Of a stretch of 64,000 nt of DNA, positions 28,509 to 45,109 are shown one piece after another. The DNA is from Agriterribacter humi (GTDB lineage: Bacteria; Bacteroidota; Bacteroidia; Chitinophagales; Chitinophagaceae), in NCBI RefSeq assembly GCF_009192765.1, contig NZ_VOHQ01000014.1:62001-126000 (forward strand). Direction: 5' to 3'. The stretch's first letter is position 1. The number at the start of each line of letters is the position of its first letter. A model generated the notes under the pieces. That model searched no databases. It saw only the letters and a program-made list of their open reading frames with translations, and was not told the origin of the DNA. The translations under genes and the position numbers were made by a program.

Positions 28509-28572
28509 GGTCTTCAATCGTTTATTTGCTTCCGCCGTTGGAATGGAATCCGGTGGTAGAAAACATAGCGAT

Positions 28573-28580
28573 CAAAAATA
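28573..28580 (-). promoter_or_regulatory. possible -7 promoter box for the GH31-led gene row
   Basis: On minus this reads TATTTTTG, an exact match to the Bacteroidota TAnnTTTG element. It would start transcription near 28566 and leave a 5' leader of about 58 nt before the ATG at 28508. A matching -33 TTG at the usual distance is not evident, which lowers confidence. The remaining spacer up to 28787 holds no gene. Confidence 0.4.
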
Positions 28581-28787
28581 TAAATATCAAAGTGAGATGA
28601 GGTGACTCATATGTTTATAAAGAGAGGGTGAAATGTTAACTAAGGGGTTCATTTGATAACCTGAGGGGTATGGAATGTTAAGGAGACATAAAAATTGCCA
28701 GCAACATTTCTTTCCAGCCTTGTTTTTGGCGGTTGTTTTAAATCCGGGAATTTTTATTGTTAGGGAAGATACCGGGATACCATTATT

Positions 28788-29600
28788 TTATCTTTTCCTG
28801 TGCTCATTCACGTATTTTGCAACCGTTCCTACCGGCGCGATCCATATTTCATTGGCGGGATCCTGTGCATATTCAATCAATTTTTTCAGCATAGCAAGTC
28901 GCGTGGTTTGTGGGCCGCTATTCCCCATTTCATGACCGGCAAGTACCACCCATTGACCTGCCTGTTGTGCTGATTTTATCAGGGGCAAAATATCTTCAAA
29001 GTCTTTTCCATCCATTTCAATACCGGTGAGTTGAGCCATATCGCAAAATGCAGGGTCGTTCGGACTTTCTGCCAGCCAACCCCTGCCACTGATAAAAATA
29101 TCGGCTACCAGGGGGATATAGCTTTGAGTATTTTTTCCGCGGCCCACATATGTTTGCCCGCAGGGGTATGCAAAAACCTCTGGTTTTACGCCCAGCAATT
29201 CCTCAATCTGCTTGTTGGCTGCTTTCAGTTGCCCCCGCATCTGTTTCAAAGTATAATCTTCCAGTGCATTTTCCCTCGACCACAAAAAATTCCCGGAGCA
29301 GGGATGGCTGATAGAATGATTACCGATCTCATGGCCGCCGGCTGCCGCTTTCTTCCAGCCTTCCAGGCGATTTTTTACAGTGGGAGGCTGCACATAAAAA
29401 GTAGCTTTTACATTATAGGCATCTAATAAACCCGTTCCGGTATCTACCTGGCTTGCACGGGCATCGTCAAAGCTTAAGCTGATTGCCATCTTTTTGCCTT
29501 CGGGCCAAATAAATGCAGATTCCTGCGCAGATGAAATCTTACTACAAATCAAAAAAACAATACAGAAATATAGCAGAGAAGAAATTCTTTTTGTTTGCAT
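28788..29600 (-). CDS. exported polysaccharide deacetylase (NodB/CE4-type)
   Basis: 270 residues with a signal peptide (about 1-25, ending KISSAQ). NodB motifs are all visible: LSFDDA (motif 1, Asp45 base and Asp46 metal ligand), HEIGNHSISHP (motif 2, metal ligands His95 and His99) and FAYPCGQ (motif 3). A late VVLAGHEMG segment supplies the leucine/histidine pocket. The enzyme hydrolyses N- or O-acetyl groups on a polysaccharide, likely in the periplasm; acetylated xylan, xyloglucan or chitin-like polymers are candidates. It is divergent from the SGNH acetylesterase gene at 29829 with a palindrome between them, so the two deacylating enzymes may be co-regulated. Confidence 0.85.
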   Translation of the reverse strand: MQTKRISSLLYFCIVFLICSKISSAQESAFIWPEGKKMAISLSFDDARASQVDTGTGLLDAYNVKATFYVQPPTVKNRLEGWKKAAAGGHEIGNHSISHPCSGNFLWSRENALEDYTLKQMRGQLKAANKQIEELLGVKPEVFAYPCGQTYVGRGKNTQSYIPLVADIFISGRGWLAESPNDPAFCDMAQLTGIEMDGKDFEDILPLIKSAQQAGQWVVLAGHEMGNSGPQTTRLAMLKKLIEYAQDPANEIWIAPVGTVAKYVNEHRKR

Positions 29601-29729
29601 GATGTATTCGTTTTATGATTATACAGCGGGTTCGCAAGGGAAGATAAATAATTTGCTGCAACAAATGATAAAAGCGCTGAGGTGGCAGTCAATTTTCAAA
29701 GAAACAGGTCCATATGCCACCTCCCGCAA

Positions 29730-29745
29730 TTTAAAACGTTTTAAA
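29730..29745. promoter_or_regulatory. 16-bp perfect palindrome with central CG between divergent deacylase genes
   Basis: TTTAAAACGTTTTAAA is fully self-complementary and lies in the 228-bp divergent spacer, about 130 bp upstream of the deacetylase start (29600) and 84 bp upstream of the acetylesterase start (29829). The AAAACGTTTT core and its position fit an operator for a LacI/GalR-type regulator controlling both directions. The half-site differs from the GCAAACGTTTGC sites, so a different regulator may act here. Confidence 0.5.
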
Positions 29746-29828
29746 CAGGTATCGTTTAACCCCGGTATTCTCCTTATGGGGATTGTTTTTATTTGTATTT
29801 TTAATTTTTTAGCCTTCAATTATTTGCT

Positions 29829-31802
29829 ATGCCATTCAGAATGATCCTTTCTTTCTTATGCCTGCTTTGTATTAACCAGGCCATTGCAGACGTTCGCTTA
29901 CCCAAAATTTTTGATTCACACATGGTACTTCAGCGCAACAAACCCATACCCGTTTGGGGCTGGGCCGATGCCGGCGAAAAGGTAACCGTTGAACTAAGCG
30001 GCAGTGGAATAACAAAACAAAGCAAAACCATAAAAGCGGGTAAAGACGGGAAATGGATCCTTCGGCTGAATGCCGCTGAAGCGGGCGGCCCTTACCAGTT
30101 GGTAGTTAAAGGAAAAAAGAATGTGCTTACGCTCGATGATGTATTGATTGGAGAAGTATGGATATGTTCGGGCCAATCCAATATGCAATGGCCGGTAAGC
30201 GCTTCTGATAACGCGGAGGAAGAAATAGCCGCTGCCAGTTACCCGCTGATCCGTCATTTTGAAGTGCCGCGGGAAATAAGCTTAGCACCCAAGGATGATC
30301 TGTCAAAAGGGGAATGGAAAACAGCCACACCCGAAAATGTGGGGCAGTTTACCGCGGTGGGTTATTTTTTTGGACGAGAATTGTATAAGAAATTAGGCAT
30401 ACCCATTGGTTTGATCAACACCTCATGGGGCGGCACCATTGTAGAAACATGGATCAGCAAAGAAGCCATGAAAAGTTTTAACGAGTTTTCGGATGTAGTG
30501 GATGCAATGCCTGTATCTATGGATGCGCTCGGCGAAAAACGTAAAACAACGCTTACCAATGCCATCAATGAATTGCAGGGTGGCATACCGGCGTCCGGGG
30601 ATGTTCAATCATGGTCATCTGCTTCTTTTGATGACAGCGAATGGAAAACGATTGAAGTGCCGGGCAATTTCGACCGCAAGGATTTCCAATACCTTGACGG
30701 CGTAGTTTGGTTTCGCCGCGAATTTATATTACCCGATTCATTAACCGGTTTAAGTGTGGCACTGTCGCTGGGTACTATTGATGATGTGGATGCTACTTAT
30801 GTAAATGGCATAAAAGTGGGCGGTACTGCCAGTAAAACGGCAACCGGCCGAATCTATATACTGGAGCCATCACAACTGCATGCGGGAAAAAACAGCATCG
30901 CGGTGCGCATTGAGGATTTTGGAGGACGGGGTGGCTTTACCGGTAAGCCTGAAGACGTAAAGATCAGCCGGGGCGCTTATGAACAATCGCTTGCGGGAAT
31001 ATGGAAATACAGGATCGAATCTTACACAAACAATAACCAGTTTGCCGGTCCCAATGACGCGGGTACTTTGCTGTACAATAGTATGATCGCGCCGTTGATT
31101 CCCTATGCCATGCAGGGCGCCATCTGGTACCAGGGCGAAAGTAATGCAGGACGCGCCTACCAGTACCGAAAATCCTTTCCACTCATGATCAGCGACTGGC
31201 GTAACCGCTGGAAGGAGGAGTTTCCTTTTTTGTTTGTACAGTTGGCCAGTTTTAATGCCAATAATGGCGATAGTAGAAAAGGAAGTAGCTGGGCCGAATT
31301 ACGCGAAGCACAGGCTTTAACCCTGCAGGCTTTGCCGCGTACAGGCATGGCCGTTATTCATGATATTGGCAATCCAAAAAATATTCATCCTACCAATAAA
31401 CAGGATGTAGGAAAAAGACTGTCGCTCCAGGCTTTAAAAATAGCATACGGGCAAAATATGCTTTCGCAGGGTCCGCAATTTCAATCCATGCAAAAGGAAG
31501 GGAATAAAGCGATACTTACTTTCACTGATACGGGAACTGGTTTAATAGCTTCAGGTAAATATGGTTACCTGCAGGGTTTTGAAATAGCAGGCGCCGATAA
31601 GGTATTTCATTGGGCGAAAGCTGAGATCCAAAATGGGAAAGTGGTGGTTTGGAGTGATGAGGTAGCCAACCCGGTTGCTGTGCACTATGGTTGGGCCGAT
31701 GACAATATGGAAGCTAACCTGTTTAATAAAGAAGGCTTACCTGCCGCGCCCTTCCGTACAGATACCTGGAAAAGCATTACGGAAGAAGTGCGGTTCAAAT
31801 AA
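29829..31802 (+). CDS. sialate O-acetylesterase-family (SGNH) exported esterase
   Basis: 657 residues; a second ATG at 29841 would give a shorter leader. Signal peptide about 1-20, then DVRLPKIFDSHMVLQRNKPI, the standard opening of this family. The SGNH blocks are WICSGQSNMQWP (nucleophile Ser117), the oxyanion/Asn segment WYQGESNAG, and a late Asp/His pair near NIHPTNKQD (about 518-526). A galactose-binding-like jelly-roll of about 150 residues (about 255-400) is inserted between the esterase halves, as in many Bacteroidota members. Despite the family name these enzymes often act on acetylated plant glycans. It is the first gene of the plus-strand row that continues to 42357. Confidence 0.88.
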   Translation: MPFRMILSFLCLLCINQAIADVRLPKIFDSHMVLQRNKPIPVWGWADAGEKVTVELSGSGITKQSKTIKAGKDGKWILRLNAAEAGGPYQLVVKGKKNVLTLDDVLIGEVWICSGQSNMQWPVSASDNAEEEIAAASYPLIRHFEVPREISLAPKDDLSKGEWKTATPENVGQFTAVGYFFGRELYKKLGIPIGLINTSWGGTIVETWISKEAMKSFNEFSDVVDAMPVSMDALGEKRKTTLTNAINELQGGIPASGDVQSWSSASFDDSEWKTIEVPGNFDRKDFQYLDGVVWFRREFILPDSLTGLSVALSLGTIDDVDATYVNGIKVGGTASKTATGRIYILEPSQLHAGKNSIAVRIEDFGGRGGFTGKPEDVKISRGAYEQSLAGIWKYRIESYTNNNQFAGPNDAGTLLYNSMIAPLIPYAMQGAIWYQGESNAGRAYQYRKSFPLMISDWRNRWKEEFPFLFVQLASFNANNGDSRKGSSWAELREAQALTLQALPRTGMAVIHDIGNPKNIHPTNKQDVGKRLSLQALKIAYGQNMLSQGPQFQSMQKEGNKAILTFTDTGTGLIASGKYGYLQGFEIAGADKVFHWAKAEIQNGKVVVWSDEVANPVAVHYGWADDNMEANLFNKEGLPAAPFRTDTWKSITEEVRFK

Positions 31803-31986
31803 TGATTTCGGGGATGCATGGGTGCACATTGTTGTCTATGCCTTACTATGTGCCTACTGTGCCTATGTGTTCATTTTTTTTTACACGTAGTCACATAGAT
31901 GCATAGGTACAAATAGGTGTTGTGTTAAATTATTAAGTACTTAAGCGCTGGCATCAATTAACCCAAACCAATAAATAAAAGATAAG
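31803..31986. repeat. spacer with degenerate CTATGTG/CACATAG inverted repeats and a 12-bp palindrome
   Basis: Copies of CTATGTG and GCCTA occur around 31835-31870 and their complement CACATAG/GCATAGG at about 31890-31905. They flank a run of nine T, so the RNA can fold into an imperfect hairpin that may act as a weak terminator. TTAAGTACTTAA at 31933-31944 is a perfect palindrome about 43 bp upstream of the next start codon. Function of either is unknown. Confidence 0.45.
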
Positions 31987-33471
31987 ATGGCTGTATCTTT
32001 TCAAAAACGCGCTTTACTTTCTGTATATCTGTTATGTATTTTCAGTGTACAGGCAACGGAATTGTATATTGGGAAAGCAACCGCAGATATTACCCCAAAG
32101 TTACCGGTAGCATTAATGGGACAGTTTGAGCTTCGCATTGCAAACAAAGCGGAAACGCCCTTAACCGCCAATATCATTGCGTTAGAATCGAGAAATGGCA
32201 GCCAGTCGGTGGGAACAACCATCATGGTTTCCTGCGACCTGGTTTTTATTCCAGCCGATTATTTACAAAAGGTGAGAGCGGAAGTAAGCAAACGCCTGCC
32301 TGGCTTTGACGTGAATAATATTATTCTGAATGCTACACACACCCACACGGCGCCCGTACTGGAAGATGATCCGGATAAAGTATCCTTTCAATATAAGATA
32401 CCAAAAGAAGGCGTTTCGCAGGTATCGGAATATCTTCAATTATTTACGCAGCGGGTATCTGAGGCCATCGTAAAAGCATGGAAAAACCGTAGTGCCGGAA
32501 GCGTTACCTGGGGACAGAGCAGGGCGGCGGTCGCTTATAACCGCAGAGCGGTATATGCCGATGGAACTGCCGCTATGTATGGCAAAACCAATACGCCCGA
32601 ATTTCTGAACCTCGAAGGTTATGAAGATCATGATGTAAATACCCTTTTTTTCTGGGACAACAATAAGAAGCTTATTGCAATGAGTATTAACGTAGCCTGC
32701 CCCGCACAGGAAGTAGAGGGGCGTTCTACTGTAAATGCCGATTACTGGCACGTGGTACGCGTTTCCTTACAAAAAAAATATGGCGCCGGTCTTTGTGTAC
32801 TCGGCTGGATAGGCGCCGCGGGCGATCAGTCGCCACACCCCATGTATCGTAAAAAGGCCGAAGAAAGAATGCGGAAACTGAGTAATACGGATCGTATGGA
32901 AGATATAGCCCAGCGTATTGTTTGGGCAGTTGATAAAACCTACGAAGCGGTAAAAAATGAAGCGCGTACAAATGTTCCTTTAGTCCATAAAGTTGAAAAG
33001 CTGCTACTGCCTATGCGTATTATTACAGAAGAAGAATCCAAAAATTCAATGCAGGTGCGGGATGATGCTGCCCGGCAAATAGCTAAAGACCCTAAAATGG
33101 CAGATCAGTTGCATGCAAAAATGACCTGGTTTGGTGATGTGGTGAAGCGCTATGAGCGGCAAAAGACGAACCCGAATCCGCAATATGAAACGGAAATACA
33201 TGTGGTGCGCATAGGCGATGCTGTTATATGTACCAACCAGTTTGAATTGTTTACCGATTATGGCATCCGCATGCAGGCACGCAGCAGGGCCCTGCAAACA
33301 TTTGTGATACAGCTTGCCGGTCCCGGTACTTATTTGCCAACAAGCAAGGCGGTAACGGGTGGCGGATACAGCGCGGTTTGCCAGAGTAGCGCGGTTGGCC
33401 CGGAAGGGGGGCAGCTATTGGTGGAACGCACTTTAGCGCTGATTGATGAACTTTGGAAAGAGGCAAAATGA
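31987..33471 (+). CDS. neutral-ceramidase-like exported protein, subfamily 1
   Basis: 494 residues with a signal peptide (about 1-23). It has the N-terminal domain fold of neutral/alkaline non-lysosomal ceramidases: GKATADITP at the start, the zinc-site motif NATHTHTAP (His118, His120) and a GDQSP motif (279-283) where true ceramidases carry the nucleophile Ser. The position of the next zinc His, usually within a V-x-H-x-T-type motif, appears to be VACPAQE (Cys238, no His). The C-terminal Ig domain of full ceramidases is absent, and length is about two thirds of theirs. Real activity on ceramide is doubtful; an amidase or lactonase role on another substrate is possible. It overlaps the next gene by ATGA. 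Confidence 0.7.
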   Translation: MAVSFQKRALLSVYLLCIFSVQATELYIGKATADITPKLPVALMGQFELRIANKAETPLTANIIALESRNGSQSVGTTIMVSCDLVFIPADYLQKVRAEVSKRLPGFDVNNIILNATHTHTAPVLEDDPDKVSFQYKIPKEGVSQVSEYLQLFTQRVSEAIVKAWKNRSAGSVTWGQSRAAVAYNRRAVYADGTAAMYGKTNTPEFLNLEGYEDHDVNTLFFWDNNKKLIAMSINVACPAQEVEGRSTVNADYWHVVRVSLQKKYGAGLCVLGWIGAAGDQSPHPMYRKKAEERMRKLSNTDRMEDIAQRIVWAVDKTYEAVKNEARTNVPLVHKVEKLLLPMRIITEEESKNSMQVRDDAARQIAKDPKMADQLHAKMTWFGDVVKRYERQKTNPNPQYETEIHVVRIGDAVICTNQFELFTDYGIRMQARSRALQTFVIQLAGPGTYLPTSKAVTGGGYSAVCQSSAVGPEGGQLLVERTLALIDELWKEAK

Positions 33472-34949
33472 CAATATTGAAGATTAAAAACGGCTTCCCA
33501 ATTACAATCCGTATTGCCGCTGCTGCTGTTGGTATTGCGCTGCTGACGCTGTCAGGTATAGCATCGGCACAAACCGATGCGGGCAGGATATTTCGTGCAG
33601 GAGCGTCAACCAGTAATATTACACCCGCGGTCGGAACATCCATCAATGGAAATTTTAGCGATGAAACCGTGCAGCATATTCACGATGAAACGCATGTACG
33701 TTGTATAGTGCTTGATGATGGGAATACACAGCTTGCTATTGCCGTAGCTGATCTTTGCATGGTTTCAAGGGCAACATTGGATAAAGCCAAACGCCGCGCA
33801 AGCAGTATAACCCATATTCCCGTTGAGCATATGCTGGTCTCTGCCACGCATACGCATTCCGGTGGCACTGCCTGTTCGGTTTTTCAAAGCGATCCGGATT
33901 CTGGATATCTTCACTTTCTTGAAAGTCGCATAGCCGATGCCGTTATAAACGCCCATAATAACCTGGCGCCGGCGCGTATAGGCTGGGGCACGGGCAGCGA
34001 AGCCGGTCAGGTATTTAACCGCCGCTGGAACATGAAACCCGGTGAACCGCTGATCAATCCTTTTGGAAATACAGATAAGGTAAAGATGAACCCAGGTGTT
34101 GGTAACCCCAACCTGCTTGAACCCGCCGGTCCTACGGATCCTGGTATTTCGGTGGTTTCCATTCAGGCTTTGGATGGAACGCCTGTTGCTATACTGGCGA
34201 ATTATTCCCTGCATTATGTGGGCGGCGTTGGTAAAGGCGAAGTATCCGCTGATTATTATGGTATGTTTGCCGGTCGTATGCAGCAGTTGCTAAATGCGGA
34301 TAGACAGCACAATCAGTTTGTCGCCATCATGTCTAACGGTACCAGCGGCGATGTGAATAATATTAATTTCGGTGCTGCATCTTCCGTGTCTTCCCCTCCC
34401 TATCATCAAATGCAAAAAGTTGCCAATATTATTGCGGCGGAAGTATATAAAGTAGTACAGCAAATAAAGTATCAAAACTGGGTTCCTTTAAGCGTTAAGC
34501 AAAAACAAATTGAATTGATGGTACGCAAGCCCGATAAAACGGAACTTACCCGCGCTAAAACAATTCTTTCCAAAGTAAACAAACCCGTACTCACTTCCGT
34601 AGAAGCGCTGTACGCCCGTGAAACGGTTTTAATAAATGATTATCCAAATCAGGTATCACTCCTCCTTCAGTCCATGCGCATAGGCGATTTGGCCATAACT
34701 GCAATTCCTTGTGAAGTATTTGCGGAAACCGGTTTGGAGATTAAAGCAAAAAGCCCTTTCAAATCCACTTTCACTATTTCATTGGCTAATGGATACAATG
34801 GCTATTTGCCCACACCGGCGCAACACCAACTGGGTGGTTATGAAACATGGCGTGCCCGTTCAAGCTATCTCGAAACAGAGGCATCAGTGAAGATCACTCA
34901 ATCGCTATTTGAAATGTTGGATTTACTTAATAAAGAAAACAACCCGTAA
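33468..34949 (+). CDS. neutral-ceramidase-like exported protein, subfamily 2
   Basis: 493 residues from the ATG at 33468, which overlaps the previous stop (ATGA); the frame extends upstream only to a TTG. Signal peptide about 1-34 (ending GIASAQ). Motifs: GASTSNITP, VSATHTHSGG (His128, His130), NYSLHYVGG (His249, zinc-ligand position kept) and NGTSGDVNNI, where the expected nucleophile Ser of GDxSP is Asn297. It is thus complementary to its neighbour, which keeps the Ser but seems to lack this His. Start/stop overlap implies coupled translation of the pair. Substrate unknown; the name is by fold only. Confidence 0.7.
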   Translation: MTILKIKNGFPITIRIAAAAVGIALLTLSGIASAQTDAGRIFRAGASTSNITPAVGTSINGNFSDETVQHIHDETHVRCIVLDDGNTQLAIAVADLCMVSRATLDKAKRRASSITHIPVEHMLVSATHTHSGGTACSVFQSDPDSGYLHFLESRIADAVINAHNNLAPARIGWGTGSEAGQVFNRRWNMKPGEPLINPFGNTDKVKMNPGVGNPNLLEPAGPTDPGISVVSIQALDGTPVAILANYSLHYVGGVGKGEVSADYYGMFAGRMQQLLNADRQHNQFVAIMSNGTSGDVNNINFGAASSVSSPPYHQMQKVANIIAAEVYKVVQQIKYQNWVPLSVKQKQIELMVRKPDKTELTRAKTILSKVNKPVLTSVEALYARETVLINDYPNQVSLLLQSMRIGDLAITAIPCEVFAETGLEIKAKSPFKSTFTISLANGYNGYLPTPAQHQLGGYETWRARSSYLETEASVKITQSLFEMLDLLNKENNP

Positions 34950-34962
34950 ACGCTTTGAAAGA

Positions 34963-37900
34963 ATGAAAAAATTATCCGGCTTATGCGGGCATTGGAGCTA
35001 CTGCATTTGTTTTTACTTTTTGTTGGTGATCGTATTGCAAGCCTGTGGCAATTCGCCGCTATCTTATACCGGTGGAGCAATAAAACCTGAAGCTGCACTT
35101 GCTACATTTGAAATAGAAGAAGGATTTACTATTGAACTGTTGGCTGCTGAACCGCTTATTGCCAGCCCGGTAGATATGGAAATAGATGAATACGGCCGCC
35201 TCTATGTGGTGGAGATGCCTGGCTATCCATTAGATAATAGTAGAACAGGCAAAATAAAATTATTGACGGATACCGATGGCGATGGAAAGATGGATAAGAG
35301 TATTGTATTTGCCGACCAGCTCATATTTCCTAATGGCATACAACGCTGGAAAGGTGGCGTAATAGTAACCGATGCACCCAATGTACTTTATTTGGAAGAT
35401 ACGAATGGTGATGGCCGCGCTGACTTGAGGGACACTCTGTTAACCGGGTTTTCTTTATCCAACCCCCATGTGAATGTAAATAACCCGGTATATGGTTTGG
35501 ATAACTGGATTTATCTCTCGCATTTTGGAGCGATAGGCACCCGCAAATATGGAACTGAATTTGGCGACCAGGGAACGGAAATTTATTTTCCTGGTCAGCC
35601 TGATCAACCACGCTTACCTAAAAATGCCGAAGCACGTACGGTTCGGTTTCAGCCCGATCATAAAAAACTGGAAATGACTGCCGCAAAAAGCCAGTTTGGA
35701 CAAACATTCGATCAGTGGGGGCATCATTTTTTAACGCATAACCAAAACCATATTTATGAAGAAATGATAGCGGCGCCTTATCTGAAACGCAATCCCGAAC
35801 TGTTGCTTTCAAACGCCACCCAATCTATTTCAGATCATGGCGATGCTACGGAGGTTTTTCAGATCACTAAAAATCCAGACCGCCAATTATTTACACCCGT
35901 TGGTTTAACTACTTCATCAAGCGGAATAACCATGAGCCTTGGCGGGCTTTTTCCTTCGCCCTTTGATGGCAATGTGGCATTTGTTGCGGAATCGGTAAGT
36001 AACCTGGTACATGCGGATATTATAAAAGACAATGGCAGTAGTTTTATAGCAGGCCGGCATCGTAGCGATAAAGAATTTCTGGCTTCAACCGATGCCTGGT
36101 CGCGCCCGGTAAATATGTATGTTGGGCCTGATGGCGCTTTGTATGTGTTGGATTATTATCGCCGTATTATTGAGCATCCCGAATGGATGTCGGATGAAGC
36201 GGTTGCCGCTGGCGGTTTATATGATGGCTATAATATGGGCCGTATTTACAGAATTACACCGACTGGTACAAAAGCCGCAAACTGGACAAAAGGTCTTGCA
36301 TTGGGTAGCGCTACCATTGAGCAATTGGTGGGCCATCTGGATGATAAAAATATTTGGTGGAGACTAAATGCGCAACGGTTATTGGTTGACCGGATGGATA
36401 AGACCGCGATACCTGCTTTGGTGAAGATGAGTGAAAACCGGGATGCTCCATTAGGAAGGTTGCATGCACTATGGACATTAGAAGGAATGGGTGCACTAAG
36501 TTCCGAACTTATAAAAAAGGCGTTACATGATACTGTTGCAGGAGTACGGGAGAATGCTGTTAAACTGACAGAGTTGCATTTAGCAGCTTCTCCGGAATTA
36601 GGGACTACGCTGTTGTTATTGCAAAATGATACTGATCCCAAAGTACGGTTTCAACTGTTGTGTACCCTTGGATATATTAATACAGCAGAAGCAGCCACAG
36701 CAAGACAAAAACTTTTATTCAGCAACCTCAGCGATGAATGGATGCAGGTAGCCGCTTTATCTGCATCCGCTTCTCAGGCTGGTTCCCTGCTGAAAGAAGT
36801 GCTGAACACTTTCAGGAATGATGTTCCGGCTTATGCTTCATTAACACAAAGACTTGCCGCAATGATTGGCGCCGGAAAAACGCAAGAGGCGATTGGTAAG
36901 CTGATACAAAAAGCGATTGCTCCGGGTTTTAAAAAAGAAGAAAGCTGGCAGGCACCGGTACTAAAGGGTTTGAGTGAGGGATTAAAGCGAAATGAGCCCG
37001 CACGCGCTGTTTTACAAAACCTCCAGCCCCTTTTGGTAAATGGCTTTTTTGAACATCCTGATGCGGAAGTGCGCAAAGCAGCGCTGCAGTTATTAAAGCT
37101 TACCGCAACTAAAGGGAATACAATTGAAACCGGAATTGTGAAGGCCGTTTCCATAGCCGGAAATAAAAAACTACAGGAGGAGCGAAGAGAAGAAGCCATT
37201 CATTATTTAGCCTTGAGCGATGCCGCCCCCTACGGTAATATATTAAAAGGATTAATCGTTCCGCAGGAACAGCCATCAGTGCAAATTGCGGCCATTAAAA
37301 TATTAGCTAAACTGCCCGGCACTAACGTTTCTACCTACCTGCTGCAACAATGGGATGTGCTGACGCCAGGCATACGCGATGCGGCGCTGCCTGTTTTTAT
37401 GCAGGATGAAGAACGGATACGGTTACTGCTGGATGCTGTTGAGAAAAAACAAGTAGCGCCAACCAGCATTAGCTGGAACCGCAGGGTGCAACTCATGAGC
37501 AATGAAGATGAAAAACTCAGAAATCGCGCCCGTGCTTTACTCACTAAAAATGATTCCCCAAAAACGAACCTCGAATATCAGAAAGCGCTGGAATTACCAG
37601 GTAACAAAGCCAAAGGAAAGATAGTGTATACACAGAACTGCGCTATCTGTCACCGGGTGAGAGGAGCATCGGGCATAGCGTTTGGTCCGGATTTGGGAAC
37701 CATACACAACTGGCTTGCTAAGGATATTATGGTGAATGTGCTGGATCCTGATTTTTCCATAGCACAGGGTTTTGATCTTTGGGAACTGCAATTGAATGAA
37801 GGTGGTACGCTTCAGGGAATGATAAGGAGTGAAACCTCGGCGGCCATCACCTTACACAGTGCGCCAGGCGTTGAAAAAACAATCAATCGCCAGGATATTA

Positions 37901-38010
37901 AATCTATAAAAGCGCTGAATATGTCGCTCATGCCGGGTTTGGGAGCTCAGATCAATCCGCAGCAAATGGCCGACCTGATTGCTTTTTTACGAAACAGCAG
38001 GCAGGAATGA
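34963..38010 (+). CDS. PVC-type heme-binding CxxCH lipoprotein (TIGR02604/TIGR02603 type), copy 1
   Basis: 1,015 residues from the ATG at 34963. Lipobox VLQAC (Cys28). Residues about 45-440 form a beta-propeller-like dehydrogenase domain related to PQQ/sorbosone-type enzymes (MEIDEYGRLYVVEMPGYP, TDTDGDGKMDK, QSISDHGDA). HEAT-like helical repeats fill about 450-860. A c-type cytochrome module follows, with CAICH (893-897) as the heme site and the Met of NMSLMPG as a likely axial ligand. The layout is known from Planctomycetes, Verrucomicrobia and Bacteroidota, and no member's substrate is established to my knowledge. It probably oxidises a sugar or alcohol outside the cytoplasm and passes electrons to the heme. 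It begins 13 bp after the ceramidase-like gene. Confidence 0.85.
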   Translation: MKKLSGLCGHWSYCICFYFLLVIVLQACGNSPLSYTGGAIKPEAALATFEIEEGFTIELLAAEPLIASPVDMEIDEYGRLYVVEMPGYPLDNSRTGKIKLLTDTDGDGKMDKSIVFADQLIFPNGIQRWKGGVIVTDAPNVLYLEDTNGDGRADLRDTLLTGFSLSNPHVNVNNPVYGLDNWIYLSHFGAIGTRKYGTEFGDQGTEIYFPGQPDQPRLPKNAEARTVRFQPDHKKLEMTAAKSQFGQTFDQWGHHFLTHNQNHIYEEMIAAPYLKRNPELLLSNATQSISDHGDATEVFQITKNPDRQLFTPVGLTTSSSGITMSLGGLFPSPFDGNVAFVAESVSNLVHADIIKDNGSSFIAGRHRSDKEFLASTDAWSRPVNMYVGPDGALYVLDYYRRIIEHPEWMSDEAVAAGGLYDGYNMGRIYRITPTGTKAANWTKGLALGSATIEQLVGHLDDKNIWWRLNAQRLLVDRMDKTAIPALVKMSENRDAPLGRLHALWTLEGMGALSSELIKKALHDTVAGVRENAVKLTELHLAASPELGTTLLLLQNDTDPKVRFQLLCTLGYINTAEAATARQKLLFSNLSDEWMQVAALSASASQAGSLLKEVLNTFRNDVPAYASLTQRLAAMIGAGKTQEAIGKLIQKAIAPGFKKEESWQAPVLKGLSEGLKRNEPARAVLQNLQPLLVNGFFEHPDAEVRKAALQLLKLTATKGNTIETGIVKAVSIAGNKKLQEERREEAIHYLALSDAAPYGNILKGLIVPQEQPSVQIAAIKILAKLPGTNVSTYLLQQWDVLTPGIRDAALPVFMQDEERIRLLLDAVEKKQVAPTSISWNRRVQLMSNEDEKLRNRARALLTKNDSPKTNLEYQKALELPGNKAKGKIVYTQNCAICHRVRGASGIAFGPDLGTIHNWLAKDIMVNVLDPDFSIAQGFDLWELQLNEGGTLQGMIRSETSAAITLHSAPGVEKTINRQDIKSIKALNMSLMPGLGAQINPQQMADLIAFLRNSRQE

Positions 38011-38086
38011 AAAATATACATGGTAAATATTGCGGTATTCGTCCTCTTTATTATAAGAATGAAATTATTATTTGAAAGGTTTGAAA

Positions 38087-41000
38087 ATGAAAAACAATAA
38101 TCAGTTCAGCAAAGCATTTCCGGTTCTCTGGCTGCCCCGGTTTGTGTCTCCACTAACCGGCGACAAGAAGTCCATCCAATTATTTGGGGTTGCTCTCGTT
38201 TCAATCGCCTGGCTGCCCCGGTTCGTGTCTTCACGAACCGGCGACAATTTGAAATGCACTCAATTGTTTTGGGTTGCTCTCGTTTCAACTGTCTTTTTTT
38301 GTTCCTCTTGTGGAGAGCAATCTGCCACGCAGGCAAACCTACCGCAGGTACCCGAAGGGTATACGGTAGAAGTAGCGGCAGGGCCCGATCTTTTAGATTA
38401 TCCTATGTTCGCTACACTCGATGAAACCGGCAGGCTCTTCGTTTTTGAATCTACCGGTAATGTATATCCTAAAACAGATTCCGCATTGAAGAATCCCCAA
38501 TTCAGGATCAAGCTCATAGAAGATACCAATGGAGATGGCGTATACGATAAAAGCACCATCTTCGCCGATAAGGTTGGATTTCCACAGGGCGGCGTTTTTT
38601 ATAAAGGAAGTTTGTACGCTACTTCGGCGCCCGACCTGCTGAAATTTACTGATACGGATGGCGATGGTGTAGCCGACAAGCGGGAGGTGCTGCTAAGCGG
38701 GTGGACACTTAATGTAAATGCCAACAGCCTTATTGGTCCATTTATGTCGCCCGATGGCTGGCTGTACATGACCAGTGCAATTATGGGCTTTGATGTAACA
38801 ACAAAAGAAGGAGTGAAGCTGAAGGGTGAGACAGCCCGCATTTGGCGTGTGCGCCCCGATGGCTCGGGACTGGAATGGATATCCGCCGGCGGTATGAATA
38901 ATCCTGTTGAACTGACATTTACTGCAGCCGGCGAACCTATTGGCACGGAAACATATTTTACGGATCCCAAAGCGGGAGAGCGGGATGCATTGGTGTACTG
39001 GACGGAAGGCGGCGTATACCCGAAACCCAATAGCAATATTGACCGCGATAAGCTGGTACGTACGGGCGACCTGATGCCGGTGGTGAGTAAATACTCCCGC
39101 GTATCGCCGGCAGGCATTGGCCGTTACAGGAATACCGTACTGGGGGATGATTTTAAAGATAACCTGTTCAGCGCCCAGTTCAATACGCATCGCATTATCA
39201 GGCATAAACTATCCAGGGAAGGCGCGTCTTTCCGTACGGAAGATGAACCGTTTTTCTGGTCGGATAATGAAGACTTTCATCCTACAGACGTGCTGGAAGA
39301 CGCAGATGGAAGTTTACTCGTAGTAGAAACCGGCGGATGGTTCATCAAGGGATGTCCGTTATCGCAGGTATCCAAACCCGAACTAAAAGGATCAATCTAC
39401 CGGGTACGCCGCAACGGAGTAAAAAAAGCGGATGATCCCTATGGCAATGCTGTGCAGTGGGCAAACCTTCAGCCCAACGATGCGGTGAAGCATCTTGGAT
39501 CCGCCAACGCTTTTGTAAGCGATCGTGCGGTACAACGGCTGGTGGATGCCGGTGATGCTGCTATTGAATCAATTAGGACTGTACTTCAACAATCTCAGCC
39601 GGTGGAAGCAAAAGTAAAAGCGGTTTTTGCACTCTACCGGGTAGGTACACCCGGAGCGATGGCAGCAGTGAGGACTGCATTAAGTGATACAGACCAACAG
39701 GTGCGTATAGCCGCGGCACGTGCGGCCGGACTGGCAAAAGATGTTCAGGCAGTGGATAAGCTGATGGAACTGGTGGCCAAAAGCGACCCCGCAGTACGCC
39801 GGCAGGCGGCTACGGCACTCGGACAAATCAAAGATAAAAAAGCCGTTGAAGCTTTACTTGCCGCGGCCGGCGATACAGAAGACCGGTTTATCCGCCATGC
39901 CATTATTTATGCGCTCATTTCCATTAATGAACCGGCGCTGGTTGCGTCAGGGCTTGCCGATGTTTCCGCCGGAGTGCAGGAAGCAGCGCTTATAGCGCTC
40001 GACCAGATGCCTTCATCTACTTTGCAGGCAAAACAGCTCACACCTTTTCTTACCACCAATAATATATCGTTAAAGCATACCGCCTTATGGGTAGCGGCTC
40101 ATCATCCCGAATGGTCGGCTGATATGGTACAGTTTTTAAGAAGCCGTTTTCAGCGCGCTCCGTTAAGCAAGGAGGAAGAACGACTCTTCGGCAATATACT
40201 GGTTTCATTTTGTGGCGATACCCGTATGCAGCAATTTATAGCGGATCAGTTTACAATAGCAACGCCGGCGCATAAGCTTTTCCTCCTCGGTTCAATGGAA
40301 GCCTGCAAGGTTGAAAAATTTCCGGATCCATGGACGAACCAGCTTCAAAATCAGTTAGCCCGCGGCATGGACGCACAAGTTAAATCGCAGGTTATGCGAT
40401 TGATCCGTTTGCGGGGGATTACTACATTGAACAACGGTTTACAACAAGTGGCGGACGATACACAAAATTCAACGGAGCTGAGGGTAGAGGCTATTACCAC
40501 TATATTAAAATCAGAACCAAAAATCACCAACCACAATTTTGATTACCTGTATCAACAGTTGCAGGTGGGAAAAGAGGCCGCAGTTCGTCAGCAGATTGCT
40601 TCAACGTTGGCAGAGGGTGAACTTTCTGAACAGCAGTTACTGCACCTGGCTACCGATTTTCTTCCTAAAGCAGATGCTTTTATTTTGCCCCGGCTTGTTC
40701 CTGTATTTCAGGGAAAACATGCTGTTGAAATAGGTAATGCATTGGCTTCAGCATTAACACGGTCTTCAAGCCTCTCCGGTTTTACACCCGAATATCTTCA
40801 AAAGGTTTTTGAACAATATCCTAACACAATCAAACCCGCTACAGATCAGCTCATGGCCAAATTGAATGAAGTAAGAGCCGATCGTTTAAAGCGGCTTGAA
40901 GCATTGGAAAAGAACATTCCCAACGGCTCACTTGACCGCGGCCGTATACTATTTTTTGGGAAGGCTACCTGTGCTACCTGTCATACCATTGGAGCCGATG

Positions 41001-41368
41001 GCGGACATTTTGGCCCGGACCTTACTTCTATTCAGCTCGACCGGTCGGCACACGATCTTTTGGAAGCCATTGTGTACCCCAGTGCCAGCTTTGTAAGGGA
41101 ATTTGAAAGCTATCGGGTGAAAACGAAAGGGGGCGGGCACACAGGCATCATCAAAGAAAGAACCCCCGATGAAATTATTCTTGCTACTTCCGCTCAAACT
41201 GCTGTTCGTATTCCACGTGCAGATCTTGTGTCAATGGAGATATTGGATATGTCGCTGATGCCACAGGGTTTTGATCAGTTACTGAATAACCAGGAAATGG
41301 CGGATCTAATGGCCTTTATTCTGGGTCAGGACCAGGATCCCGAAACCGACCAGAAGTTATTGAGGTAA
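38087..41368 (+). CDS. PVC-type heme-binding CxxCH lipoprotein, copy 2 (divergent), with repeat-built N-terminus
   Basis: 1,093 residues from the ATG at 38087; a TTG five codons earlier is less likely. Residues 15-68 are two copies of an about 27-residue segment (WLPRFVS..TGD..., ending QLF.VALVS) encoded by a palindromic DNA repeat. The real secretion signal seems to be the second VALVSTVFFCSSC with lipobox Cys75. A propeller domain follows (LFVFESTGNVYP, EDTNGDGVYDK, MSPDGWLYMTS), then HEAT repeats (about 480-850) and a cytochrome c module with CATCH (962-966) and a distal MSLMPQG. It has the same overall plan as copy 1 but is only distantly similar. 76 bp separate it from copy 1. Confidence 0.83.
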   Translation: MKNNNQFSKAFPVLWLPRFVSPLTGDKKSIQLFGVALVSIAWLPRFVSSRTGDNLKCTQLFWVALVSTVFFCSSCGEQSATQANLPQVPEGYTVEVAAGPDLLDYPMFATLDETGRLFVFESTGNVYPKTDSALKNPQFRIKLIEDTNGDGVYDKSTIFADKVGFPQGGVFYKGSLYATSAPDLLKFTDTDGDGVADKREVLLSGWTLNVNANSLIGPFMSPDGWLYMTSAIMGFDVTTKEGVKLKGETARIWRVRPDGSGLEWISAGGMNNPVELTFTAAGEPIGTETYFTDPKAGERDALVYWTEGGVYPKPNSNIDRDKLVRTGDLMPVVSKYSRVSPAGIGRYRNTVLGDDFKDNLFSAQFNTHRIIRHKLSREGASFRTEDEPFFWSDNEDFHPTDVLEDADGSLLVVETGGWFIKGCPLSQVSKPELKGSIYRVRRNGVKKADDPYGNAVQWANLQPNDAVKHLGSANAFVSDRAVQRLVDAGDAAIESIRTVLQQSQPVEAKVKAVFALYRVGTPGAMAAVRTALSDTDQQVRIAAARAAGLAKDVQAVDKLMELVAKSDPAVRRQAATALGQIKDKKAVEALLAAAGDTEDRFIRHAIIYALISINEPALVASGLADVSAGVQEAALIALDQMPSSTLQAKQLTPFLTTNNISLKHTALWVAAHHPEWSADMVQFLRSRFQRAPLSKEEERLFGNILVSFCGDTRMQQFIADQFTIATPAHKLFLLGSMEACKVEKFPDPWTNQLQNQLARGMDAQVKSQVMRLIRLRGITTLNNGLQQVADDTQNSTELRVEAITTILKSEPKITNHNFDYLYQQLQVGKEAAVRQQIASTLAEGELSEQQLLHLATDFLPKADAFILPRLVPVFQGKHAVEIGNALASALTRSSSLSGFTPEYLQKVFEQYPNTIKPATDQLMAKLNEVRADRLKRLEALEKNIPNGSLDRGRILFFGKATCATCHTIGADGGHFGPDLTSIQLDRSAHDLLEAIVYPSASFVREFESYRVKTKGGGHTGIIKERTPDEIILATSAQTAVRIPRADLVSMEILDMSLMPQGFDQLLNNQEMADLMAFILGQDQDPETDQKLLR
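38129..38288. repeat. two tandem copies of an 81-84-bp palindrome-bearing repeat inside a coding region
   Basis: Unit 1 starts at 38129 and unit 2 at 38210. Each opens with TGGCTGCCCCGGTT and contains a hairpin: CCGGTTTGTG-TCTC-CACTAACCGG (38137-38160, one mismatch) and CCGGTTCGTG-TCTT-CACGAACCGG (38218-38241, perfect 10-bp stem). Each ends with GGGTTGCTCTCGTTTCAA. The middle 15-20 bp differ in sequence and by 3 bp in length, keeping the reading frame. This looks like a REP-type element or a relic of one that became part of the gene. Confidence 0.8.
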
Positions 41369-41433
41369 TGATTAGAATGCAATAGTACCGGTAAACCCGA
41401 ACACATCAATATAAACGCTTTAAATTTTCGACT

Positions 41434-42357
41434 ATGCAACGACGTCAATTTATCAATGGGCTGCTCACCAGCGTTGCGGCATTAACCGCTACGCAGGTAC
41501 CGTTGACAATGGTTTCCGCAAAAGAAAAGCGCTTCACAGAGCCACCCTTCAGGATGAAGTTCTCTCCCGATTTTAATATTTTTTCTAATCTGCCTGGAAA
41601 GGATGTGGTGGATAAGATTAAATGGGGCTACGACCAGGGGTTCCGGGCATGGGAGAATACTTTTCTGAAAAACAGGAGCCTGGAGGAACAGGAGCGCATC
41701 AGCAAAACGATTCAGCAGTTGGGTATGGAGTTCGGGCAATTTGTAGGTACCCATACTTTTGAGCACGTAACTTTTGCAGGGAGGGATGCCGCCTTACGCG
41801 AAAAAGTGCTGAGTGATGTTCGTGCGTCGGTGGATGTAGCCAAACGGATGAATACCAAATTTATTCATAATGTGCTGGGTATGGCCGATCCCAAACTTCC
41901 CGATGATTTCCAGATGGCCAATGCTATTGAATTACTGAAACGTATAGCCGAAATTTACGAGCCGCACGGTTTGGTGATGGTAATGGAAAGTATGAACCAC
42001 CGGATTAATCACCCCGGTATGTTTTTGCATACTATCCCCCAGGCCTATGCACTGGCAAAAGCTGTGGGAAGCCCTTCTGTAAAAGTGCTTTTTGATTTTT
42101 ACCATGTGCAGATTGAAGAAGGAAATATCATTCCTACCCTCGACTACGCCTGGGATGAGATCGCTTATATACAGATTGGCGATACACCGGGGCGTAATGA
42201 ACCTACCACGGGGGAAATCAATTTTGTTAATGTGCTCCAACATGTTTACAATAAAGGTTACCGTGGGTTTATGGGCATGGAACACAGCATCAGCAAGCCC
42301 GGCAGGGAAGGAGAGCTGGCTGTATTAAAGGCTTATCGGTCTATTGATCCGAAGTAA
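41434..42357 (+). CDS. twin-arginine-exported sugar isomerase/epimerase-like TIM-barrel protein
   Basis: 307 residues. The N-terminus MQRRQFINGLLTSVAAL is a twin-arginine signal. The body is a xylose-isomerase-like AP2 TIM barrel of the hydroxypyruvate-isomerase type: QGFRAWEN, HNVLGMADP, LVMVMESMNHRINHPGM (metal-ligand Glu), VKVLFDFYHVQIEEGN (Asp/His) and a C-terminal GFMGMEHS (Glu). Such proteins are often exported in Bacteroidota and Planctomycetes beside sugar oxidoreductases. It probably isomerises or epimerises an oxidised sugar. It is 65 bp after the second heme protein and seems to close the plus-strand row. Confidence 0.82.
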   Translation: MQRRQFINGLLTSVAALTATQVPLTMVSAKEKRFTEPPFRMKFSPDFNIFSNLPGKDVVDKIKWGYDQGFRAWENTFLKNRSLEEQERISKTIQQLGMEFGQFVGTHTFEHVTFAGRDAALREKVLSDVRASVDVAKRMNTKFIHNVLGMADPKLPDDFQMANAIELLKRIAEIYEPHGLVMVMESMNHRINHPGMFLHTIPQAYALAKAVGSPSVKVLFDFYHVQIEEGNIIPTLDYAWDEIAYIQIGDTPGRNEPTTGEINFVNVLQHVYNKGYRGFMGMEHSISKPGREGELAVLKAYRSIDPK

Positions 42358-42411
42358 AGGGCTTATAATTCTGTTTTGAAATTTAGCTATTAATTGGAAA
42401 TTAACTTATAA

Positions 42412-42942
42412 GTGAATACCTTTGCATTAGAAATATGGGATGATGAAGGTGCTAAATGTACCTTTTATACCGTTAGATGGGAAGATGCCAGGCATAATGA
42501 AACCGATAAGTTCTTTACCAAATATGATGCAGTTACTGAGCTGAAAAGTGAAATTCAAAAACTGCTAAGTTTTGTATTGGATAGTATAGGTGATGATCAT
42601 GGAGCAATAGATATTTTATTTAACAGGTTTGAGCAGGAAGTGGTTGGGTTGCCGAATAAAGGAAAAGTCAATGTAGGAGGCATTATGTTTCTTTATCCCA
42701 ATTTTCCGTTAAGGCTGTATGCATTAAGGATAAAGAACCGGAAGGATTTGGTTGTATTATTTAATGGCGGCATAAAATCAGCCCAAACAAACCAGGCAAG
42801 TAAGGGCCTCAACCTAAAGTGGATTGAAGCGTGTCAATTTGCCAGAAGAATTGAAGAAGCAATAAGAGATAAAGAAATAATAATTGATTCTAAAAACCGA
42901 AAACTATTAGCAGCAAACGGAGATGAGGAAATTATCTTATAA
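42412..42942 (+). CDS. putative toxin of a type II toxin-antitoxin pair (unnamed family)
   Basis: 176 residues from a GTG; the N-terminal NTFALEIWDDEG looks conserved and no in-frame ATG occurs for about 90 codons. The C-terminal half (PLRLYALRIKNRKDLVVLFN, GGIKSAQTNQ, WIEACQFARRIEEAI) resembles the core of HigB/Gp49-like toxins, where a 'lRlfy..r..ivlLhgf.KK' strand-turn-helix lies at the active site. The N-terminal 80 residues are extra and of unknown role. It is followed 14 bp later by a short XRE helix-turn-helix gene, the usual toxin-then-antitoxin order of higBA loci. An ordinary uncharacterised protein beside an HTH gene remains possible. It is 54 bp after the TIM-barrel gene. Confidence 0.55.
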   Translation: MNTFALEIWDDEGAKCTFYTVRWEDARHNETDKFFTKYDAVTELKSEIQKLLSFVLDSIGDDHGAIDILFNRFEQEVVGLPNKGKVNVGGIMFLYPNFPLRLYALRIKNRKDLVVLFNGGIKSAQTNQASKGLNLKWIEACQFARRIEEAIRDKEIIIDSKNRKLLAANGDEEIIL

Positions 42943-42956
42943 AACGAAGATTTTTT

Positions 42957-43226
42957 ATGAGAAGTAAAGTTGCCAAAAAGATACAAAGTGAAACGCCTGA
43001 AGAGTTACGCATTTTTGTGCGTCAGTATACCGATATTATTATCAGGATAAATGAGCTTATAAAGGCTAAGGGGTACACACAGAAAGACCTGGCAGAGAAG
43101 CTGAATAAACGACCTTCTGAAATCAATAGATGGCTTAAGGGAAATCACAATCTTACGCTTAAAACTATCGCTAAGCTGGAAGCTCAATTGGGCGAGCCAA
43201 TCATTTATGTTAAGAAGGCTTCTTGA
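42957..43226 (+). CDS. XRE-family helix-turn-helix antitoxin/regulator
   Basis: 89 residues. A Cro/C1-type HTH spans about 38-80 (YTQKDLAEKLNKRPSEINRW, then LKGNHNLTLKTIAKLEAQLG), with a short basic N-terminus (MRSKVAKKIQ). Its size and place 14 bp after the putative toxin fit an antitoxin that neutralises the toxin and represses the operon. After the gene (43227-43514) lies a 288-bp spacer containing imperfect AGCGATCAGCCATCGGCTATCAG-like inverted segments but no gene. Confidence 0.75.
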   Translation: MRSKVAKKIQSETPEELRIFVRQYTDIIIRINELIKAKGYTQKDLAEKLNKRPSEINRWLKGNHNLTLKTIAKLEAQLGEPIIYVKKAS

Positions 43227-43502
43227 TGCTATGCAATCAGCGATCAGCCATCGGCTATCAGTTGAGTATCTGCTAACGATGGGATGAACGCTTCTTTTTA
43301 ATATTGATTGTGGCTCATAGCTGATTGCCGGCAGCCTCCATCGGATTTTTAGTTTGTGGGTTATCGTTGGATTTTCCTTCGAATTTCGGATTTAGCACTT
43401 CGGATTTAGCATTTATAATTTATTGGGTTCTTGTCATTTACTATTTGATTCTTTGTATTGCTAATAAGCATGCTTTTACAGCACCGAAGCAAAGCAACTG
43501 CC

Positions 43503-43510
43503 TAACTTTG
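43503..43510 (+). promoter_or_regulatory. -7 promoter box TAACTTTG giving a near-leaderless transcript
   Basis: This is an exact match to TAnnTTTG, ending 4 bp before the ATG at 43515. Transcription would begin at or within a few bases of the start codon, so the mRNA may be leaderless. A clear -33 TTTG is not at the standard distance. Confidence 0.45.
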
Positions 43511-43514
43511 GCAA

Positions 43515-44300
43515 ATGGCATCATTAATAGGATCTGTTTTGTTTTTCGCTTTATGCCTCGCTTTATTTTTTGTAATAAGAAAGAGAAAGCGATATGTATA
43601 TGCAGTACCCGATAATATTCCCCAACTGTTATCAGATCATGTAGCTTATTACCGGGAGCTGGCGCCTGAACAAAAAACGGCATTTGAAAAAAGAGTAAAA
43701 GCGTTTCTTTCCTATATCCGCATTCATGGTGTGAACACCGAAGTGGAAGACTTAGATAAGGTGCTGGTGGCCAGCAGCGCGGTAATACCGGTTTTTGGAT
43801 TTGATGAATGGCGTTATTATAATTTGAAAGACGTGTTATTGTATGGCGATAGGTTTAATACAGAAGATTTTTCCACAACGGGTGATGAACGCCATACACT
43901 TGGAATGGTGGGAACAGGCGCCCTGCAGCGCATGATGATCTTATCGAAACCCGCGCTCAGGCAGGGCTTCCTTAATGAAAGCCAGAAAGACAATACCGGT
44001 ATCCACGAATTCGTGCATTTATTAGATAAGGCCGACGGCGCGACCGATGGTATACCCGAAGCGTTATTACACCAGCAGTATACCATTCCATGGATCAAAT
44101 ATATGAGTGAAGCCATCCATCATATAAAAACCGGCCAGTCGGATATTGATGTGTACGGCGCCACTAATCATGCGGAATTTTTTGCAGTGGCAGCCGAATA
44201 TTTTTTTAACCGCCCCGACCTGTTTAAGGTAAACCACCCCGAACTCTTTGCATTGATGGAAAAAATATTTAACCAGCGGCGGGGGACTAACGGGCGATAA
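43515..44300 (+). CDS. MtfA-like zinc metallopeptidase (M90 family), membrane-anchored
   Basis: 261 residues. One N-terminal transmembrane helix (about 4-21) followed by RKRKR, so the catalytic part faces the cytoplasm. The zinc site is HEFVH (164-168) with the third ligand probably Glu221 in NHAEFFAVAAEYFF. Family landmarks such as FGFDEWRYYNL and the aspartate-rich loop DKADGATDG are present. MtfA in enterobacteria binds the regulator Mlc and has aminopeptidase activity; the role in Bacteroidota is unknown. A second M90 homologue is at 49464-50300. Confidence 0.85.
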   Translation: MASLIGSVLFFALCLALFFVIRKRKRYVYAVPDNIPQLLSDHVAYYRELAPEQKTAFEKRVKAFLSYIRIHGVNTEVEDLDKVLVASSAVIPVFGFDEWRYYNLKDVLLYGDRFNTEDFSTTGDERHTLGMVGTGALQRMMILSKPALRQGFLNESQKDNTGIHEFVHLLDKADGATDGIPEALLHQQYTIPWIKYMSEAIHHIKTGQSDIDVYGATNHAEFFAVAAEYFFNRPDLFKVNHPELFALMEKIFNQRRGTNGR

Positions 44301-44719
44301 AGGGGGAAAGACCTGAGTAAATGAAAAGAATAAGAGGGGTTGGCGGTTGAATAGCAATGCTTTTCTGCATTTTTTTTGTTATCCTGTCGCAGATTTAGTA
44401 AATATTTGCGATACCACAAGAGAACTTTTAATCCCAACTAATTGCCCCAAAAACCAAAGCCTTTACAAATGAGTAAAAAAAGTAACAATTCTCTTTACTG
44501 CTTAGCGTTAGATTGATTTTTTAAAATGTTGAGATAATTTCGCCAGGTTTGTGCAGATAGGGAAATAGAACTGACCGCCAACAATGATAAATGTAACGGA
44601 ATTTTTAGCTCAAATTTAATTTACATTCGTCAACACGAAACTGCTGTCTAAAACTGGTGTCATTTTTTTCGTCTGTTCACTTGCATCAAGGTTTGTCGTA
44701 AGATCGGTTTTTCAATTAT
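44301..44719. other. 419-bp spacer between convergent genes
   Basis: Besides the weak hairpin at 44356-44377 nothing recognisable is present: no ORF with coding character, no tRNA and no long repeat. It is A/T-rich compared with the flanking genes. Confidence 0.5.
44356..44377 (+). terminator. weak intrinsic terminator after the M90 gene
   Basis: AATGC (44356-44360) can pair with GCATT (44367-44371) across TTTTCT and is followed by a run of T to 44377. The stem is short, so strength is doubtful. Confidence 0.45.
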
Positions 44720-45028: not shown

Positions 45029-45055
45029 GGTTACAACCAAATGAATGCATAAAAA

Positions 45056-45087: not shown

Positions 45088-45109
45088 AAAACAGTTAATA
45101 TCATTATCA

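Follow-up and report, generated by a model that had tools for sequence, protein, structure and literature searches.

The 64,000 nucleotides of Agriterribacter humi analysed here (assembly GCF_009192765.1, contig NZ_VOHQ01000014.1, positions 62,001-126,000 of the forward strand; hereafter the window) contain a row of six genes at 29829-42357 whose core is a conserved cassette, and no description of this gene set was found in the open-licence PMC literature searched. The core consists of two ceramidase-fold proteins (CerA and CerB, of the Cer family), a large heme protein (HemA, one of the Hem proteins) and a barrel protein (TIM), and the gene of a polysaccharide deacetylase (PDA) lies nearby. 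We consider it, with a probability of about 0.4, to be one form of a Bacteroidota cassette that breaks down a sugar-containing and probably acylated compound by oxidation. The best reading, whose substrate and chemistry we infer, is that Hem would be a c-heme-coupled sugar or glycoside dehydrogenase and Cer a zinc hydrolase, both acting in the periplasm.

The conservation of the set was followed by scanning contigs of named genomes with five HemA- or HemC-type queries (HemC being a further Hem protein of the window), and the best 80 loci were kept from at least 562 confirmed relatives. Of these loci 79 are titled Bacteroidota or taxa within that phylum and one is titled 'uncultured bacterium'. 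Their open reading frames (ORFs) were called mechanically and clustered, each cluster being named from Pfam on one member. A Cer gene was found within 9 kb of Hem in 57 of the 80 loci, a PDA of the cluster of the window PDA in 38, and one or the other in 67; the 54 loci reaching 9 kb or further in both directions gave 42, 30 and 49, together with SusC in 35 and SusD in 32. In the same range, all 80 loci being counted, SusC occurs in 36, SusD in 33, FecR in 27, extracytoplasmic function (ECF) sigma factors in 19, the cluster of the window TIM in five, a second AP_endonuc_2 cluster in nine and Gfo/Idh proteins in 14. Moreover, 93 of the 96 Cer genes in range share the strand of Hem, and for 52 of 82 Hem genes the directly adjacent gene, at 400 bp or less, is a Cer gene on the same strand. 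Five genomes were selected for their Cer genes (the window's own included, the weak fragment G000:C1:284990 left out). Of the 67 Cer genes listed in them, 30 have a TIGR02604 gene (the family of the Hem propeller) no more than 5 kb away, against about 2.7 expected at random, and 34 have one within 10 kb against about 4.9. Chance adjacency of Cer and Hem was rejected on the locus counts, the strand sharing and these excesses. The first-pass annotation had proposed the row as a candidate oxidation system, with neighbourhood co-occurrence as the way to check it and lack of conservation as its refutation; in Bacteroidota loci a set is indeed conserved, and what has to be revised is its membership, since the acetylesterase (SASA) and the second heme protein (HemB) of the row drop out.

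Two forms of the cassette can be distinguished. The order Cer-Hem-TIM is kept in L053, L054 and L055 (Dyadobacter), L058 (a Cytophagaceae bin) and L059 (Cyclobacterium qasimii), with two to four Cer genes and with SusC-SusD preceding them where the contig reaches. In L059 a second barrel gene stands between Hem and TIM, so that the TIM relative follows Hem directly or after one gene in these five loci, and L053 has two CerA-type genes and none of the CerB type. The alternative order, Hem-Cer-PDA, is that of many other loci. A tree of 85 Hem proteins with SH-aLRT (Shimodaira-Hasegawa-like approximate likelihood ratio test) support, limited in reliability by long branches and a short search, places HemA in a set of eight rows (support 100) with the five Cer-Hem-TIM loci and two short contigs without mapped neighbours. 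HemC (46148-49240, minus strand), the third paralogue with TIGR02604, HEAT and TIGR02603 parts, falls into a set of seven rows (support 99) with four Cer-PDA loci and two PDA-only loci, and has no Cer gene beside it in the window. HemB pairs solely with L051, a Hem-DUF1080-Cer locus of the same genome. From the tree and the gene orders the window is therefore described as a Cer-Cer-Hem-TIM core together with the HemC and the PDA of the other form. This PDA (PF01522; 28788-29600, minus strand), divergent from the row, falls into one cluster with the PDA that accompanies Hem in other genomes, where its relatives score 321-421 bits.

CerA (31987-33471, plus strand) and CerB (33468-34949, plus strand) are exported proteins that score 27.4 and 49.6 bits with PF04734 (Ceramidase_alk), below and above its cut-off of 32.1. 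With the NCBIfam equivalog for neutral ceramidase CerB reached 25.3 bits, the cut-off being 1200, and CerA gave no match; the assignment of CerB as a neutral ceramidase proper was consequently given less weight. An AlphaFold2 model of CerB built with 59 sequences (predicted local distance difference test, pLDDT, 86.7) has the neutral ceramidase 2zws as its top fold match (E 7.7e-28, TMq 0.69). The four best matches are all neutral ceramidases, the sole listed ones with probability 1.00, and they align at 15-18% identity. Zinc ligands were read off a profile alignment of the Cer family to 2zws at what we take to be its ligand positions 97, 204, 411 and 448, which are H, H, E and Y in 59, 52, 59 and 59 of 59 aligned sequences. 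CerB has all four. H204 is missing from seven rows, and these are precisely the CerA-type ones, each with Pro, CerA itself reading CPAQE at this point; the catalytic serine region of 2zws fell outside the alignable part. Relatives of CerA score 540-754 bits in L053, L054, L055, L058 and L062, and those of CerB 399-473 bits in L054, L055, L058 and L059. Ceramidase-type genes are uncommon, PF04734 being present in at least 14 of 198 genomes of the phylum by a model that misses CerA-type proteins, and CerB-like proteins in 25 of 147 genomes of the family. Cer genes also occur without Hem, in two orders defined by Pfam on L037 and L042, the remaining loci being grouped by gene size and by eye. The first (L034-L041, L043, L045, L046) includes a class III aminotransferase, a 3HCDH-type dehydrogenase and an M19 dipeptidase, and the second (L042, L044, L052) a class III aminotransferase with kinase-, isomerase- and aldolase-looking genes.

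HemA (34963-38010, plus strand) is of the lipoprotein type and combines a DUF7133/TIGR02604 propeller, HEAT repeats and a Cytochrom_C/TIGR02603 domain, an order shared by HemB. Bit scores with TIGR02604 and TIGR02603 are 266.6 and 112.2 for HemA, 170.1 and 95.4 for HemB, and 291.2 and 115.7 for HemC, all exceeding the cut-offs of 122.2 and 68.15. In the predicted model of HemA (pLDDT 87.8) the C-terminal domain aligns to the C-terminal heme domain of Kustd1711 (7zs0), including the distal Met (the mutated Met292), and Kustd1711 is reported to have His/Met hemes at about +350 mV (PMC11791136). Residues C893, C896, H897 and M990 of HemA are invariant across a 66-row alignment, as would suit a His/Met c-type heme. 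Among the 80 loci 81 of 82 Hem ORFs contain CxxCH, and in the exception, L124 (= L147), the heme domain is on a separate ORF just downstream. The propeller gave a distant likeness by HHalign to the GSDH (PQQ type) proteins of neighbouring loci (80 aligned columns at a probability of 88% and E 3e-6), the controls being a lactonase propeller at 1.8% (a 2-sequence profile) and SusD at 0.4%. A GSDH-type cluster of about 700-1150 aa occurs in seven of the 80 loci (L053, L081, L083, L084, L100, L101, L128); the L053 protein, which was the one scanned, has PKD, CBM6-like and cytochrome c parts.

The survey of the genes around Hem covered 154 ORFs on its strand, each no more than 5 kb away and 200 aa or longer, in batches of 100 and 54; ORFs truncated at a contig end were discarded, and Hem, Cer, PDA, SusC, SusD, FecR and sigma factors were left out. 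AP_endonuc_2 leads the census with 16 of the first 100. Gfo/Idh proteins account for two in the first batch and six in the second, GMC proteins for two and three, and the first batch also holds GSDH (three), ThuA (three), DUF1080 (two) and GDSL lipase (four). No single glycoside hydrolase family is found in more than one protein of either batch among the 25 families listed. Clusters of GMC and of Gluconate_2-dh3 proteins, presumably forming a LacABC-type 3-dehydrogenase, occur together in five of the 80 loci (Pfam was run on both for L119). In L062 and L064 an ILVD_EDD (aldonate-type) dehydratase, an SDR and a protein of the SGL lactonase family follow Hem-Cer-PDA, L124 carries MR_MLE, and L119 has a GntP-type permease. 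DUF1080 is found next to Hem and Cer in L033 and L051, and a home-made profile adds L150. LacABC and DUF1080 are reported to cooperate in lactose use (PMC9007349). Judged by their families, the neighbours of Hem are those typical of the oxidative breakdown of sugars and sugar acids, which upholds the oxidation theme of the first-pass annotation.

These observations can be arranged in a working scheme. The SusC/SusD pair, which lies close to the cassette, would import the substrate to the periplasm, where the ceramidase-fold protein or proteins, to judge from fold and zinc ligands, and the deacetylase may deacylate it, or open a bond of the ester, amide or lactone type. The HemA propeller would then oxidise a sugar hydroxyl and the His/Met c-type heme would hand the electrons towards the respiratory chain, after which the AP_endonuc_2 barrel may isomerise, epimerise or hydrate the keto product. 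Oxidation would in this way replace much of the glycosidase work of an ordinary polysaccharide locus. A bolder extension, which we hold to be somewhat doubtful, is that in near-glycosidase-free Bacteroidota loci SusC/SusD, Cer and Hem make up a single periplasmic system that dismantles an acylated glycan or glycolipid by respiration-coupled oxidation. The CerA branch, a ceramidase fold deficient in a zinc ligand, would then have gained a new reaction, for instance the elimination of ketoglycosides or the opening of lactones.

Several points weigh against a joint oxidative function. The 80 loci were picked for likeness to HemA and hence share ancestry. In 23 of them there is no Cer within 9 kb and in 13 neither Cer nor PDA, some of these being cut by contig ends. 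The window's own genome has 19 TIGR02604 genes over the cut-off, and most live without Cer because just four of the 19 have one within 5 kb. CxxCH is absent from four of the 16 other TIGR02604 ORFs examined in this genome (L134, L136, L137, L139), and two Cer-adjacent propellers, L149:8666-10777 and L152:6558-8615 (703 and 685 aa, respectively), have no heme domain; these heme-less, Cer-linked propellers therefore led us to give oxidative catabolism less weight and glycoside cleavage more. For the HemA propeller a sequence-profile search gave no solved relative, the 50 matches listed by Foldseek are HEAT-type folds and the heme domain with none for the propeller, and no cofactor site was identified. 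CerA is one zinc ligand short. Single glycoside hydrolases, Alpha_L_fucos among those listed, lie near some Hem genes, and GH31 and GH9 genes are close to the row in the window.

The alternative that survives best, though we regard it as doubtful, is that the Hem propeller itself breaks the glycosidic linkage, either hydrolytically or through a transient oxidation followed by elimination, with an auxiliary heme and with Cer and PDA deacylating first. The first-pass annotation knew no proven substrate for this architecture, which proved too strong a statement, as purified Lac161_ORF7 (AGW45552), with the same TIGR02604, HEAT_2 and TIGR02603 parts, is reported to have released glucose from lactose in a glucose-oxidase assay with a Km of 1.8 mM and a kcat of 13.2 per s (PMC5342196; the printed kcat/Km of 7.3 x 10^4 is tenfold the quotient of the two). 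The protein is described there as a hydrolase and the consulted text contains no redox test, which is a further point against an oxidase. The heme-less propellers beside Cer and the lack of a recurring glycoside hydrolase family near Hem also favour cleavage by the propeller. Against it, the activity comes from one report, whose consulted text has no redox controls, and the near-universal CxxCH of the Hem proteins in the HemA-type loci and the invariant Met would be odd in a plain hydrolase. By analogy the activity of Lac161_ORF7 supports an action of Hem on glycosides, and it leaves undecided whether cleavage or oxidation comes first.

It is unlikely that the cassette breaks down an N-acylated glycolipid or amino sugar, with the Cer proteins as N-deacylases, PDA as N-deacetylase and Hem oxidising the amino alcohol or amino sugar that is released. 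The neutral ceramidase fold and zinc ligand positions of CerB, the PDA genes of 38 loci and the class III aminotransferases that accompany Cer in other clusters (by Pfam in L037 and L042) would agree with such a role, but the equivalog score of CerB is far too low, CerA lacks a ligand and several Hem neighbours point to sugar acids. An aldose route is improbable; in it HemA would convert a free sugar into a lactone by oxidation at C1, with Cer as the lactonase and with dehydratases leading on to 2-keto-3-deoxy acids. It could account for the ILVD_EDD, SDR and SGL genes of L062 and L064, for MR_MLE in L124 and the GntP-type permease in L119 and for the distant GSDH likeness of the propeller, but such genes are found in few of the 80 loci and nowhere in the window row, and SGL in L062 and L064 would make a second lactonase redundant. 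That the genes are neighbours by chance or through a general clustering of exported enzymes, as the missing promoter, terminator and expression support for one transcript and the gap after SASA might suggest, is very improbable. The strand sharing and the excess over random expectation speak against it where Cer occurs with Hem and with PDA or TIM, whereas for SASA and HemB it may hold.

The ORF coordinates reproduce exactly the six plus-strand genes given by the first-pass annotation and their gaps of 184, -4 (an ATGA overlap), 13, 76 and 65 bp, with ATG starts at 33468 for CerB, 34963 for HemA and 38087 for HemB. The order is SASA, CerA, CerB, HemA, HemB and TIM. Pfam and NCBIfam scans of the window proteins agree with the family names it had given, including the TIGR02604/TIGR02603 and HEAT architecture, CerA being below the PF04734 cut-off. 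The proposal that all six are exported or anchored also stands, on signals recognised by eye: SASA, CerA and CerB have signal peptides, HemA (LQAC) and HemB (SSC) lipobox-like cysteines, and TIM a twin-arginine (RR) motif.

TIM (41434-42357, plus strand) is a PF01261 barrel whose relatives score up to 523 bits in the Cer-Hem-TIM loci. It obtained 120.4 bits with the hydroxypyruvate isomerase equivalog (cut-off 353.45) and also stayed below the cut-off for 2-oxo-tetronate isomerase, and both names were rejected. SASA (PF03629; 29829-31802, plus strand) had no match at E 1e-10 among the ORFs of the 80 loci and its membership of the system was rejected. Other kinds of GDSL/SGNH-type hydrolase lie near some Hem genes, one cluster being present in five Larkinella loci (Pfam on L075). 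HemB (38087-41368, plus strand) was ruled out as a core part, as it branches with L051 and is missing from the five Cer-Hem-TIM loci, and two Hem genes are found in just L065 and L078 of the 80 loci. HemB and SASA look like local additions to the row. In the signal-peptide region of HemB (38128-38288) some 81-84 bp are duplicated in tandem, with the palindromic core CCGGTTCGTG..CACGAACCGG; pieces of this duplication (39-49 bp, 86-89% identity) recur at three further sites in the genome; perhaps this is an element resembling the repetitive extragenic palindromic (REP) type inside a coding sequence.

Promoter or terminator evidence for the six genes as one transcript was sought in the sequence and none was found. 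Sigma-70 type promoters and terminators are rarer than in shuffled sequence. The pattern TTTG-N17..23-TANNTTTG, which we take to be the Bacteroidetes promoter, has two matches in the window against 3.9 expected and none in the row, and an Rfam scan of 28000-46500 at gathering scores gave no match. The 184 bp between SASA and CerA (31803-31986) are large for one transcript. An AT-rich stretch with CTATGTG/CACATAG words able to pair, seen by eye in this gap, is in keeping with a transcription boundary between the two genes.

The first-pass annotation had overlooked HemC and the divergent SusC/SusD, GH31 and GH9 genes around the row, as well as PDA, which was missing from its set. The neighbouring genes at 20813-28517 resemble a polysaccharide utilisation locus on the minus strand, opposite to the row, with an adjacent pair of SusD (20813-22474) and SusC (22416-25589; the pair spans 20813-25589) followed by GH31 (25620-28517). 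M90 peptidase genes at 43515-44300 (plus) and 49464-50300 (minus) flank the HemC region, and a weak M90 match also lies near Hem-TIM2 in L049. An FAD/ALO-type oxidase and a DUF4147/MOFRL (glycerate kinase-like) gene form a pair near HemC at 50373-53141 (minus), possibly a glycerate branch that would suit a TIM resembling hydroxypyruvate isomerase.

TIGR02604/TIGR02603 proteins are numerous and still named by a motif. Their conserved Cer and PDA partners, the SusC/SusD pair and the sugar-oxidation neighbours provide a handle on the function of Hem and allow a substrate screen, and environmental ceramidase-like genes would gain a role outside sphingolipids. Compared with the neutral ceramidases of Pseudomonas aeruginosa (2zws) and human (4wgk), CerB has the same fold and zinc ligand positions, whereas the Cer proteins are shorter, far under the equivalog cut-off, one ligand short in CerA, and set among genes that recall sugar catabolism. 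The frequent SusC, SusD, FecR and ECF sigma genes are those of a polysaccharide utilisation locus of the SusC/SusD type, from which the cassette loci differ in having no single recurring glycoside hydrolase family among the Hem neighbours. The heme domain of HemA is like the diheme cytochrome c Kustd1711 in the Met ligand position and in a strand-rich insertion (by secondary structure); unlike HemA, Kustd1711 has no propeller and no HEAT repeats and is an anammox protein (PMC11791136).

With the 3-ketoglycoside pathway (LacABC and DUF1080 of Caulobacter, and BT2157; PMC9007349) the cassette would share an oxidation-first sugar catabolism. GMC with Gluconate_2-dh3, DUF1080 and AP_endonuc_2 barrels recur near Hem, but there is no DUF1080 among the eight window proteins scanned and no GMC in the window row, and a TIGR02604 heme protein would stand in for the known dehydrogenase. 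HemA, HemB and HemC lie over both curated cut-offs of the PVC-type heme-binding CxxCH proteins, and their order of propeller, HEAT repeats and heme domain is that of Lac161_ORF7 (PMC5342196). No settled function was found for this family, and the present proteins differ from it in being tied to a Cer/PDA/TIM cassette.

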